Of a stretch of DNA of 57,091 nt, positions 30,233 through 35,381 are shown piece by piece; the stretch's first letter is position 1; each line of letters begins with the position of its first letter. Made by a program: the position numbers and the translations under genes. The notes beneath the pieces are model-generated. The model was given only the letters and a program-made list of their open reading frames with translations, was not told the DNA's origin and did no database searches. Origin of the DNA: Gammaproteobacteria bacterium (GTDB taxonomy: Bacteria > Pseudomonadota > Gammaproteobacteria > Pseudomonadales > Azotimanducaceae); assembly GCA_018656865.1 (NCBI GenBank), contig JABHYO010000042.1, forward strand, positions 1 to 57,091. The letters run 5' to 3'.

Positions 30233-31267
30233 ATTTTTCTCAATCACTCGAAGGCTGCGGCTCTCACCGAACAGGCAAAACCACCCACGCTGGTTGCACT
30301 ACTGACTCGAACAGCACGTCTGCAGCGAAGTGAATGGGATTCACTCAACTGGCTCTACCGATGGCTGGTCATGGTTCGGGCCGTGGTCCTGGTCATGACA
30401 GTTTCCAGTGTCATCGTCGGCATCCTAATGGCAGCAGCTGTTACAGATCTTCAGTGGGATCGTGTCCTGGCTCTGGTTCTCGGTCTGACAATGGCACATG
30501 CCACCAACAACCTGGTCAATGACTGGACCGATCAACGGATGGGTGTGGATCGGAATAACGACTTCCGACGCCGCTACGGCACCCATGTCCTGGAAGAAAG
30601 CCTCGTGAGCCAGCGCACATTCGCCCTCACAACACTTCTGACAGGCATCGCCGCACTAACCTGCGCCGGATATCTGATTGCCGGTATTGGCCTCAACATC
30701 CTCTACCTGACCCTGATCGGCGCGCTCTTTGTCTTCTTCTACACCTGGCCACTAAAACATTTCGCTCTTGGTGAGCTTGCGGTCCTGCTTGTCTGGGGTC
30801 CTCTCATGACGGCTGGCTCTTATTATGTTCTGACTGAAGGCCTGACACTCCAGGTCTTTCTTGTCTCTCTTGTCGTCGGCGCGGGTCCGACACTGGTCAT
30901 CCTCGGCAAGCACATGGACAAGTACAAACAGGATTGCATTCTGACCATCAGAACTCTGCCAGTCGTCATCGGTCTGCGTGCCAGCAGGGTACTCTCAGTT
31001 CTCCTCATCGCAGGTCAGTGGCTACTAATCACTTATCTGGTTTTAAATTCGGGATACGGGTTTCTTGCCTGCGCGCTTTCTCTACCCGCACTGAAATCGC
31101 TTCTGACCTCGCTTCGCGCCGACAGGCCGTTGGCAAAGCCGGACGATTTTCAAGAGGAAGTGTGGCCGCTATGGCATTCAGCGTTCGCTTTCAGCTACTG
31201 CCGGAATTTTGGCTTCGCCCTTCTGCTGGGACTGATTGCAAATACCATATTCTTGAGCGTCGCTTAA
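30233..31267 (+). CDS. UbiA-family prenyltransferase, start uncertain
   Basis: This membrane protein has about nine helices and the UbiA Asp-rich site NNLVNDWTDQRMGVD, a basic loop after it, and later LGKHMDKYKQDC as the second Asp motif region. It resembles MenA-type transferases that join a polyprenyl chain to an aromatic ring. The first ATG, 30371, falls inside the first helix region, with coding-like sequence (LLTRTARLQRSEWDSLNWLYRW) in frame before it. No ATG, GTG or TTG exists upstream in that open frame; an ATT at 30233 has AGGAG eight bases upstream and is used here as a tentative start. The safe minimum is 30371-31267. Confidence 0.65.
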   Translation: MFLNHSKAAALTEQAKPPTLVALLTRTARLQRSEWDSLNWLYRWLVMVRAVVLVMTVSSVIVGILMAAAVTDLQWDRVLALVLGLTMAHATNNLVNDWTDQRMGVDRNNDFRRRYGTHVLEESLVSQRTFALTTLLTGIAALTCAGYLIAGIGLNILYLTLIGALFVFFYTWPLKHFALGELAVLLVWGPLMTAGSYYVLTEGLTLQVFLVSLVVGAGPTLVILGKHMDKYKQDCILTIRTLPVVIGLRASRVLSVLLIAGQWLLITYLVLNSGYGFLACALSLPALKSLLTSLRADRPLAKPDDFQEEVWPLWHSAFAFSYCRNFGFALLLGLIANTIFLSVA

Positions 31268-31270
31268 TAC

Positions 31271-32317
31271 CTATTTTTTCTCTGAAAGGATCAGTGCCGG
31301 TGAACCGTCTACTACCTCACCGATCACGATGGCTTCTGTTTCTTTCGTTAGCAAATGCGCGTCGGCGGGCGTCATGGAAAAGAGTAACCCGCCTGAGGTT
31401 TGGGGGTCATTCAACAACAAGATAGTCGCTTCACTCACCTCACCCTCCAGCACGAGGCTTTCACGAACAAAGTTGTAGTTCGCTTCGTGTGCACCACACT
31501 TGATCCCCTGAGCAGCTGCTTCTGCGGCACCAGGTAGAGTCGGGACCGCTTCAGCGAATATGCGAAGTGATGTCTCCGAGTTACGACTCATTTCCAGTGC
31601 GTGTCCAAGAACACCGCTGCCGGTAATATCCGTACAGGCGTGGACATCCAGTTCCGCAGCAATGTCTCTGGCATGCTTATTCAACTGCTGCATTGATGCA
31701 ACGGCGGCTTCAAAAGCCTCAGCATCGCACAACTGCGAGTTGGCCGCAGTCATGATAATTCCGGTCCCAATAGCTTTTGTCAGCACCAGCAGATCGCCGG
31801 GTTTCGCACCTCCCACTGTCCAGTGCCTGTTTTTTCTGACTTCACCGGTCACCGATAGACCAAAGTTCAACTCGGAACTTTTGATGGAGTGACCGCCCAA
31901 CAATGCAGCACCCGCTTCGTGCAGCTTCTCAACAGCTGCCTCCAGCATCGCCTCGATCGCCTCTTCGGGAACAGACGTCACCGGCCAGCAAAGCACTGAA
32001 GTAGCGAATCTGGGTTCGCCTCCCATTGCATAAACGTCGGAAATCGCATTTGCCGCAGCGATGGCACCAAAATCAGTTGGGCTGTCCACCATGGGCGGAA
32101 AGAAATCGATGGTATGCACCAGATCCATGCCATCGGCGGGACCACGGGTAACCGCCGCATCATCGTAACCATCCAGGCCTACAACAATATCGGTCGATTT
32201 CGACACGGCTATTCGCTTGATCACTCGATCCAGAGACTCTGGATCCAATTTAGCCGCTCAGCCGCCAGCCTTGACGCCACTCGTCAGACTGACGGATCCG
32301 GCTTTATCTCCTTTCAA
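31271..32317 (-). CDS. selD: Selenide, water dikinase with in-frame UGA selenocysteine
   Basis: SelD makes selenophosphate from selenide and ATP for selenoprotein and selenouridine synthesis. The plain open frame begins at TTG 32248 (LDPESLDRV), which lacks the active site. Upstream, in the same frame, TGA at 32260-32258 is preceded by codons for SLTSGVKAGG and followed by AAKL. This reads GG-U-AAK, exactly where SelD proteins have the catalytic Cys or Sec and Lys. Including it from TTG 32317 (GGAG nine bases upstream) gives 348 residues, against 347 in E. coli, with Sec20 and Lys23. Downstream motifs DDAAV, DFFPPMVD, GGHSI and NDPQTSGGLL are intact. It lies 17 bases after the acyl-CoA ligase stop. 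Confidence 0.88.
32227..32245 (-). promoter_or_regulatory. SECIS-like hairpin for selD UGA
   Basis: On the selD strand, GATCCAGA-GTC-TCTGGATC forms a perfect 8-bp stem with a GUC loop, beginning 12 bases after the UGA. The apical GU about 20 bases from the UGA fits the bacterial SECIS (SelB-binding) rule. Confidence 0.7.
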
Positions 32318-32334
32318 TGTCTCGTTCTCCAACC

Positions 32335-33909
32335 CTATATCAGTTCACGTTTAAGTATCTTGCCACCCGGGTTTCTCGGCAGGGGTTCGTCTCGAACTCG
32401 CATAAACCTGGGCACCTTGAATTCCGCCAGATTCTCCTCGCAAAGCCGTTTAACTTCTTCCGTTTCGATGACCTGTCCATCCCGGGGAACCATGATTGCC
32501 ATCACCTGTTCTCCGAAGATTTCGTCCGGAACCCCAATAACAGCAACCTCGGATACGGCCGGGTGCTGGTTGATCACAGTTTCGACTTCTGCCGGGTAGA
32601 TGTTTTCCTGACCCCGAATAATCATGTCCTTTTCTCGGCCTGAAATATAGAGCCTGCCCTCATCGTCCAGGTATCCCATGTCCCCTGTGTGATACCAACC
32701 TCCCTTCATAACTTCTTCCGTTGCAACCGGATCCTTCCAGTAGCCGCTGAAAAGCTGGGGGTTTCTGATCAGAATCTGACCCACCTGATTCTGGGACAGT
32801 TTCCTTTCCTCATCATCAACAATCCGAATCTGGGTTCCAGGATGAGGTAAACCACAGGAATCAGGCCTTACCAACGCGTCCAACTCGACAGTGCCGCTGT
32901 TGCACTCGGTCATCCCGTAACCCTGTACCTGCCCGGTATGTGGCAGTGCCTCGGCAATGCGTTTCATCACCGCCGTCGGTGTAGACGAACCGCCAAAAAA
33001 AACCATCGGGATGCTGCTCAAATCGTATTTTGAGAAGTTGGGTGAGGCAATCAACAGAGCCCAGATGGATCCCAGCGCAAACAGGTTGGTAACCCTGTGT
33101 TCCTGAACGGTTTCAAGCAGGTCATCAATCTTCCAGGTTTTTAGGAATATGGAACGGGTACCTCCACAAAAACCACCCAGAAAAGACTTACAGCCACCGG
33201 TGTAGTTCAGGGGGATAGGAATACACAGAACCTGCTCGGAACCGGCACCACGACTCTCAGCCCTTCCTCGCAGGTAGGAGTACAAAAGCGAACGATGGCT
33301 GTTTACTGCTCCCTTGGGATGTCCCGTGGTGCCCGCAGTAAAAAATATAAAGGCTGGCTCAGTTTCGTCCACAAAGCGAAAAGGGATCTCATCCGGCAGC
33401 GTTCCCTCGGTCAATCTGGAAAAGGGCAAAACGTCACCCTCGGGCTGACCCGTAGTTGCAACAATATGTTCCAGCGAGGGTAGTTCACCCATGAGCGGCA
33501 GGATTCTGCCCACGAGTTCGGGGTCGGTTAACACCACACGGGGTTCAGTCAGCGCCAGTTGATATTTCAGCTCCTGCTGCTGGTACCTGATGTTCATCGG
33601 GCAGACAATGGCTCCGATGCACACTGCAGCCCATGCGGCAACGCCGAAAGCCGGTTCCGTACCCAGAAGGATAGCAACCCGATCGCCCTGCTCAACGCCA
33701 AGCTCATGCCGCAGCACGTGCGCTGCCTTCAATACGTCATCGCCCATTTGCCTGAAGGTTATTTCCCGACCTTCGTAAACAATGGCCACCTTGTTGCCAT
33801 GAGTTTCCACTGCACTAAGGAAAGCTTCAGCCATGCTTCTGTTTCTATCCGGAAAGGCCTGTTCCAGGGGATCGTAGACTTCAGCCTGAATGATGTCCTG
33901 CCAGCTCAT
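32335..33909 (-). CDS. Acyl-CoA ligase (AMP-binding)
   Basis: This 524-residue ANL ligase has FFTAGTTGHPKGAV (P-loop), YGMTECNSGTVE, the GDMGYLDDEGRLYISGREKDMIIRG hinge region and catalytic Lys in NPGGKILKREL. The start at ATG 33909 (MSWQDIIQAEV) has GGAG seven bases upstream; the open frame back to 34062 is not family-like. It resembles 2,3-dihydroxybenzoate/long-chain type ligases broadly and no substrate can be named. It is probably co-transcribed with selD. Confidence 0.88.
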   Translation of the reverse strand: MSWQDIIQAEVYDPLEQAFPDRNRSMAEAFLSAVETHGNKVAIVYEGREITFRQMGDDVLKAAHVLRHELGVEQGDRVAILLGTEPAFGVAAWAAVCIGAIVCPMNIRYQQQELKYQLALTEPRVVLTDPELVGRILPLMGELPSLEHIVATTGQPEGDVLPFSRLTEGTLPDEIPFRFVDETEPAFIFFTAGTTGHPKGAVNSHRSLLYSYLRGRAESRGAGSEQVLCIPIPLNYTGGCKSFLGGFCGGTRSIFLKTWKIDDLLETVQEHRVTNLFALGSIWALLIASPNFSKYDLSSIPMVFFGGSSTPTAVMKRIAEALPHTGQVQGYGMTECNSGTVELDALVRPDSCGLPHPGTQIRIVDDEERKLSQNQVGQILIRNPQLFSGYWKDPVATEEVMKGGWYHTGDMGYLDDEGRLYISGREKDMIIRGQENIYPAEVETVINQHPAVSEVAVIGVPDEIFGEQVMAIMVPRDGQVIETEEVKRLCEENLAEFKVPRFMRVRDEPLPRNPGGKILKRELI

Positions 33910-34095
33910 CGTAGCTCCACAAATTGATACCAGATCTCCGGAATGGATTCGCTCCGATCCCGAATCGCGTACCTTAGCCGGAGTGGCCCAACGAATCCAG
34001 ATGGAACATGTTGCAGAAATGATCTTCTCAACCCTATAATCAGGCCCCTGAGCCGACCTCATTGGCAGCGTCTGCCAAGAAAAGGAGTACCGACA

Positions 34096-34635: not shown

Positions 34636-34727
34636 ATAGAGGACTAACCCGGTAGTTCGATACTTCCACTGTATTGAGCTACCACCTGATCGACAGTCAA
34701 CGTCGACATCATATATGGAGCTGGACA

Positions 34728-35381
34728 ATGGCTAACAACGAACAACTGGCCGCCGCACGCAAAGGTGCGCAGGCATTGAATAAATGGCGTCTGGAGAATC
34801 CGGGCATCGCACTCGACCTGAGAGATGCAGAACTTAATGGCGCCGATCTGGAAGGCGCCGATCTGTCGAACAGTGACCTGCGGGGCGTTTCTCTCGTGGG
34901 TGCCAACCTCTGCAAGGCTGACGTGAGCGAATCGAATCTCTCGATTGCCGATCTCTCCGGTGCCAACCTTGCGGAACTTGTTGGTGTCATGACCAATTTC
35001 AGGGGTACACATTTTACCGGTGCCAATCTCAGCGGTGCACAGATCAGTGGATCGGACTTTGTATCCGCCCAGATGAACGAGGCCAATCTCCAAAACGCAG
35101 CACTATTCAGTTCCAACCTTAAATGGACTGAGCTTGCGGGAGCCAATGTGACCGGCATGCATTTTGGTCGCTCATCAATGGCAGACTGCGACCTGAGCCA
35201 GACCATTGGGCTCGATGGTGTCGTGCATCACATGTACAGTTCCATCGGAACGGATACTCTGCTCCATTCGTTGAAAAATGCTGACGCTGCAGCTCGCCCG
35301 GCAATCCTGTCATTTTTCCGCAGTACCATTGAACCGGAACTGGTCGAAGAACTGGAAGTCCTGTTGAGTAACTACGGCTAG
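34728..35381 (+). CDS. Pentapeptide-repeat protein
   Basis: This 217-residue protein has about 20 A(D/N)LXX repeats from residue 30 to about 155 (AELNGADLEGADLSNSDLRG and onward), which would form a right-handed quadrilateral beta-helix. A helical C-terminal segment of about 55 residues follows. There is no signal peptide. Start at ATG 34728 after GGAG. Such folds mimic DNA or act as scaffolds; no specific role can be assigned. Confidence 0.85.
   Translation: MANNEQLAAARKGAQALNKWRLENPGIALDLRDAELNGADLEGADLSNSDLRGVSLVGANLCKADVSESNLSIADLSGANLAELVGVMTNFRGTHFTGANLSGAQISGSDFVSAQMNEANLQNAALFSSNLKWTELAGANVTGMHFGRSSMADCDLSQTIGLDGVVHHMYSSIGTDTLLHSLKNADAAARPAILSFFRSTIEPELVEELEVLLSNYG

Follow-up and report, generated by a model that had tools for sequence, protein, structure and literature searches.

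Does a selD gene interrupted by a TGA codon encode a full-length enzyme that carries selenocysteine (Sec) at this position, or does the codon mark a shorter protein or a damaged gene? This question is raised by a gene on the reverse strand of a 57,091-nucleotide stretch of gammaproteobacterial DNA, hereafter called the window. The frame at 31271-32317 (-) reads LKGDKAGSVSLTSGVKAGG-TGA-AAKLDPES... and is then open to a TAG codon, with the TGA as its sole internal stop (Table 1). TTG 32332 is the other in-frame candidate start. We conclude that the window gene very probably encodes SelD (selenide, water dikinase; selenophosphate synthetase) as a selenoprotein, with a probability near 0.96, wherein Sec insertion is predicted from the sequence evidence described below.

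An earlier note on this DNA had proposed a selD whose Sec codon is hidden by the TGA, and this proposal is upheld by the position of the codon, a SECIS-like hairpin, the presence of Sec machinery genes, and five further TGA-containing genes. The note had also stated that a plain reading from TTG 32248 lacks the catalytic residue, and a mechanical ORF listing indeed gives a 325-residue product from this start. Its expectation that gene callers would report a truncated protein holds for the mechanical listing, but not for every pipeline. For example, the annotation of the RefSeq selD of Pusillibacter faecalis (WP_213543930.1) continues straight through its TGA.

Table 1. Features of the selD locus and of related genes elsewhere in the genome. 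Positions without a contig name are those of the window.
Feature	Position	Strand	Remarks
selD CDS	31271..32317	-	348 residues, Sec at 20; stop TAG 31273-31271
Predicted selenocysteine codon, in-frame TGA	32258..32260	-	at the catalytic Cys/Sec position
Conserved Lys codon (K23)	32249..32251	-	three residues after Sec20
Bacterial SECIS-like hairpin GATCCAGA-GTC-TCTGGATC	32227..32245	-	loop starts 20 nt after TGA; -9.9 kcal/mol
Shortened ORF, 325 aa	31271..32248	-	from mechanical ORF listing; start TTG 32248
Possible ribosome-binding site GGAG	32327..32330	-	nine bases ahead of TTG 32317; identified by eye
AMP-binding enzyme gene (acyl-CoA synthetase-like)	32335..34062	-	directly upstream of selD, same strand
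UbiA-family prenyltransferase-like gene	30371..31267	+	convergent with selD
Ndh-SelD fusion with Cys (L002, L023)	C49:5422-7578		718 aa
Predicted selenoprotein L173	C136:28602-28967		best hairpin -7.5 kcal/mol
Predicted selenoprotein L174	C115:3494-3886		best hairpin -10.2 kcal/mol
Predicted selenoprotein L176	C107:2408-2623		best hairpin -7.7 kcal/mol
Predicted selenoprotein L177	C11:748-1188		best hairpin -11.9 kcal/mol
Predicted selenoprotein L178	C131:7584-7928		best hairpin -3.4 kcal/mol; misses energy limit

The read-through protein matches the SelD model TIGR00476 with 329.8 bits (cut-off 125) over residues 11-319, and thus the match spans the TGA. In alignments with the PDB sequences 2yye and 3u0o, U20 falls on the Cys of both proteins and the Lys follows three residues further on. 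In addition, the window SelD keeps 41 of the 43 columns that are at least 95% conserved in 122 other rows (U counted as C), departing only by G127A and F234S.

To survey the codon used at this site, we aligned 111 loci comprising the window gene, a second SelD gene from the same genome (a fusion described below), the best 80 of at least 494 named-genome loci, and the 29 best matches from a search of same-family genomes. The site carries a Cys codon in 87 loci (TGT in 48, TGC in 39) and TGA in 23, including the window gene; in the one remaining locus (L113), a contig end cuts the sequence ahead of the site. Of the best named-genome loci, 15 of 80 carry TGA, as do seven of the 29 same-family loci, while all 12 same-genus loci placed in our tree carry Cys. 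Thus, the TGA falls where homologues carry Cys or TGA, and the frame, the PDB alignments, and this codon survey together confirm that codon 20 stands on the catalytic Cys/Sec position with Lys at 23, as had been read from the window alone.

Stand-alone TGA SelDs occur in seven of 99 other same-family genomes, or in eight of 100 sampled when the present genome is counted. Of 369 genomes searched at the level of the class, 81 give a match at 1e-40, and a TGA lies inside the match in four of them (the present genome, G443, G363, and G245). The 770-codon TGA-containing frame of G245 was considered as a candidate Sec form of an Ndh-SelD fusion, but the stretch preceding its SelD portion is not oxidoreductase-like by eye, and we therefore take it to be a SelD that stands alone within an open frame of GC-rich DNA. 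Of 29 loci added later at class level (L181-L209), 27 have Cys and two TGA; one member, L207, is presumably a Sec-SelD of the Pasteurellales type within the same class. The EF-G of the present genome gives its highest scores with the PDB chains 4fn5 and 6n0i, both of Pseudomonas, followed by a set of chains with 2rdo of E. coli among them, which likewise points to Gammaproteobacteria as the probable class.

Some partial or weak matches were also seen. The locus cut by a contig end (contig C22 of genome G003) is a SelD fragment that groups with a TGA SelD and whose N-terminus lies beyond the contig end. The same genome holds a fusion-sized SelD match, and G003 possibly carries a second pair of Sec and Cys SelDs. 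Genome G045 has a weak match to the SelD superfamily (C98:4326-4838, E 1.4e-7) in a 325-codon frame with one TGA inside. A search of the "plasmids" collection matched 177 records, all below 60% identity. Two matches that lack an annotated gene come from records with nearly empty gene tables and are thus uninformative as to missed genes.

If Sec is inserted at the TGA, then a bacterial SECIS (bSECIS) element would be expected shortly downstream. The window gene carries a hairpin there with a perfect 8-bp stem and a three-nucleotide GUC loop in which G is first. This hairpin fits every bSECIS limit given in PMC13188914, which are a loop of 3-9 nt, a stem of 4-16 bp, a spacing of 16-37 nt, a G within the first two loop positions, and an energy of -7.5 kcal/mol or lower. 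The same source states that some genuine SECIS elements fall outside this model (PMC13188914). The 60-nt fold around the hairpin has a z-score of -3.6.

When the published constraints were applied to 110 loci, hairpins were found more often after TGA sites than after Cys sites at each energy limit: 23/23 versus 23/87 at -4 kcal/mol, 22/23 versus 18/87 at -5, 18/23 versus 15/87 at -6, and 12/23 versus 9/87 at -7.5. An earlier version of this test, conducted at -5 with a provisional range, gave 17/23 versus 12/87. In the later class-level set, the test at -5 does not separate the two groups (one of three TGA genomes versus seven of 27 Cys loci); G443 passes, whereas G245 (-4.6) and G363 (-3.1) fail. 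Adding both sets by hand yields 23/26 versus 25/114 at -5. Among all TGA trinucleotides in the window (both strands, any frame, n=2296), 80 are followed by a qualifying hairpin at -7.5 kcal/mol and 30 by one at -9.9. The hairpin test replaced whole-fold z-scores, which are too weak as a test for SECIS elements: the mean z-score of 57-nt folds is -0.69 after TGA versus -0.11 after Cys (p 0.04, or p 0.07 without the window gene). The 57-nt stretch from the TGA ranks 19th of 330 by energy within selD, and another hairpin of this form, with greater stability (-12.2 kcal/mol), occurs at about base 560, a place with no TGA to be read.

Relatives show only weak covariation in the hairpin. Two sets of them were aligned, and 90.5% and 89.3% of the alignment cells pair, compared to at most 42.9% and 61.3% in slid versions of the same alignments. 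Only one doubly changed pair is present in each alignment, and the covariation score is reached by 156/500 and 18/500 shuffles, respectively. The window hairpin is absent from these alignments because its position differs, and that of L110 was omitted likewise.

The genome (G000; 3.71 Mb in 221 contigs, 93.9% complete) carries the components needed to read UGA as Sec. The earlier note had asked for selA, selB, and selC, and all are present on one contig (C136): a tRNA-Sec gene (selC) with 68.2 bits (cut-off 47) and the anticodon TCA as assigned by ARAGORN, selA with 594 bits, and selB with 445 bits, the latter two above their cut-offs. The gene mnmH, whose product makes tRNA selenouridine, is found on C155 (344 bits, above cut-off). 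Of 100 sampled same-family genomes, 82 have a selA match above cut-off, indicating that Sec use is usual in this family. Such a match is also found in six of the eight same-family genomes with a TGA SelD, while the search for selA gave nothing above cut-off in G066 and G091 (88% and 81% complete). In the window itself, a scan with Rfam at gathering thresholds gave no matches, ARAGORN found no tRNA, and scans for promoters and terminators returned no more sites than in shuffles. The window also encodes a 235-residue pentapeptide-repeat protein at 34674-35381.

Five other genes of this genome appear to use TGA in the same manner. A search for AhpC/Prx-type proteins gave 13 matches, four of which contain one in-frame TGA, and a search for SelW-type proteins gave a single match with one in-frame TGA (motif CAQU). 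The AhpC/Prx-type motifs are UPYC (two genes), TGGU, and WUGC, and the TGGU gene on C136 adjoins selB. Thus, the five further predicted selenoproteins are four peroxiredoxin/AhpC-like proteins and one SelW-like protein with TGA at the redox-Cys site, and four of them have a hairpin at -7.5 kcal/mol or better. The placement of these motifs at redox-Cys sites is a presumed one, made with the help of Table 2 of PMC2398784. With the window SelD, the predicted selenoproteins number at least six, as counted among the AhpC/Prx, SelW, and Molybdopterin-family matches scanned.

A Sec-containing formate dehydrogenase was considered as the main client of the Sec pathway and rejected, given that none of 17 Molybdopterin-family matches, some of them cut by contig ends, contains a TGA. 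The Fdh-alpha model is matched above cut-off by one of ten such matches scanned (888 bits, C81). Five related proteins with frames of 932-949 codons were seen on contigs C27, C94, C62, C86, and C82 (L146, L147, L149, L150, and L152); these are nearest to models for the alpha subunits of DMSO-reductase II and ethylbenzene dehydrogenase, all below cut-offs.

The genome also encodes a second SelD, with Cys at the site, a finding that the earlier note had named as grounds for rejecting its proposal. This protein is a fusion whose N-terminal oxidoreductase domain matches TIGR03169 with 442 bits (cut-off 310) and whose SelD domain matches TIGR00476 with 269 bits (cut-off 125) and carries the motif CGGC. 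Its score against the "fusion_not_SelD" model is 487, which is below the cut-off of 700. Contig C49, on which it resides, is 7.9 kb long and also carries a napA gene. The Cys fusion is no argument against Sec in the window gene; the pair resembles the Sec and Cys SelDs found together in Photobacterium profundum. However, with the fusion present, the genome can perhaps do without the Sec form.

The two SelDs differ in their distribution among relatives. Strong fusion-type matches are found in the present genome and in 12 others among the 17 genomes of the genus that were scanned, wherein three of the 12 other frames span 336 to 540 codons and the rest 720 or more. In contrast, a stand-alone TGA selD is seen among these 17 only in the present genome, although many of the remaining assemblies are incomplete. 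A quick tree places the fusion within a group of same-genus fusions (support 92), whereas the window SelD (L001) stands by itself, with a branch length of 1.59 changes per column, and does not join the other seven TGA SelDs of its family; the tool warns that such long branches may be misplaced. In its best segment, the identity of the window SelD to the best 80 of at least 494 named-genome loci does not exceed 47%. Such a divergent gene, alone among the 17 genus genomes scanned, is mildly unusual, and these comparisons make lateral gain the likelier origin of the window selD. No fusion was found alongside the TGA SelD in the seven other same-family genomes searched, and four of these give a second SelD match, with E values of 7e-17 or weaker and frame lengths of 325 to 373 codons.

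Contamination was considered as the source of the two SelDs and set aside, as the fusion nests within the genus and no contig looks foreign by its composition, which is not proof. Median tetranucleotide correlations to C136 are 0.82 for 15 window pieces, 0.80 for 29 other loci of this genome, and 0.78 for two C49 pieces, compared to 0.74 for 17 same-genus loci and 0.67 for 29 loci from other genera, with overlapping ranges.

Other readings of the TGA must be weighed against Sec insertion. The codon might stem from a mistake in sequencing or assembly, or from a recent nonsense mutation that struck a selD of the Cys type; the gene would then be either an artefact or a copy in decay that the Cys fusion has made redundant. 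A Cys SelD elsewhere in the genome, the long branch of the window gene, and an assembly broken into 221 contigs are what one might expect in this case. However, a chance change would have had to strike the very codon at which relatives have TGA and, by luck, be followed by a SECIS-grade hairpin of a stability seen after only 30 of the 2,296 TGAs in the window. Moreover, the frame is otherwise open with nearly all conserved columns intact, and the same TGA use recurs in five other genes, leaving error or decay very improbable. It is slightly less probable still that the true product is the 325-residue protein, a SelD-like molecule without the catalytic residue that serves some other role. This ORF exists and its start codon is legal, but SelD likeness runs upstream past the TGA to about residue 7-11, and Cys or TGA occupies the site in all 110 readable loci of the 111 aligned.

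A general reassignment of TGA to another amino acid would also account for several genes that require read-through, and we regard it as the most far-fetched of these alternatives. TGA serves as an ordinary stop in the window, where it terminates 18 of 49 non-overlapping ORFs of at least 150 codons, and the genome has tRNA-Sec, selA, and selB. Furthermore, the six read-through TGAs seen lie at redox or catalytic Cys sites of homologues, presumably so by their motifs for the five outside selD.

The roles of SelA, SelB, SelD, and MnmH are established parts of the selenium pathway. For the window gene read as a Sec-SelD, ribosomes would start near TTG 32317, the predicted start, and reach the UGA at codon 20. 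There, SelB bound to the downstream SECIS hairpin would deliver Sec-tRNA-Sec, and Sec would be inserted rather than translation being terminated. Sec20 and Lys23 are predicted to serve the ATP-dependent conversion of selenide to selenophosphate, which would feed SelA for the formation of Sec-tRNA and MnmH for the formation of tRNA selenouridine. The Cys Ndh-SelD fusion could prime the making of the Sec enzyme.

Sec-containing SelDs have long been known and are common among bacterial selenoproteins (PMC2398784, PMC1794560, PMC13188914, PMC4561486), with 357 such sequences reported in the GOS survey (PMC2398784). The window gene shares with this family the UGA site, the Lys three residues on, the downstream SECIS, and the selA, selB, and selC genes, and is no different in kind; only its sequence is divergent, and the quick tree, with its caution on long branches, does not group it with the Sec-SelDs of its own family. 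Thus, it is a further example of a long-known selenoprotein family and involves no new mechanism. The closest precedent for two SelDs is P. profundum, which has one Sec and one Cys form, the former branching outside its relatives' clade (PMC1273633). In that species, the Cys form adjoins ybbB and the Sec form is next to selAB (PMC1273633), whereas in the present genome the Cys SelD is fused to Ndh, and the Sec SelD and selAB lie on different contigs. Ndh-SelD fusions make up approximately 40% of Cys SelDs in the GOS survey (PMC2398784), and the C49 protein, but not the window gene, has the same architecture with a CxxC motif (CGGC). We found no description of a genome that pairs a Sec SelD with an Ndh-SelD fusion of the Cys type in the portions of the literature searched, which included PMC12013277, PMC2432076, and PMC5029168.

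The gene merits a corrected annotation, because without reading of the UGA the product of a central enzyme gene loses its catalytic residue, and the two-SelD arrangement is of modest extra interest. An earlier survey found Sec SelD in Gammaproteobacteria almost only in Pasteurellales (PMC4561486). The window gene is likewise a predicted Sec SelD within Gammaproteobacteria, but is not of the Pasteurellales type by motif, and the present sampling places Sec-SelD in eight of 100 genomes of one gammaproteobacterial family. The genome also adds a case in which Sec and Cys SelDs occur together, and such a genome lends itself to the question of how the first molecules of an enzyme that requires its own product come to be made. 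We speculate, while considering it unlikely, that there is a division of labour in which the Cys fusion, native to the genus and active without Sec, primes the system and the laterally gained Sec-SelD takes over when selenium is plentiful. If this were true, then the Sec-SelD, being dependent on its own product, would act as a self-amplifying switch for at least six selenoproteins and for tRNA selenouridine.
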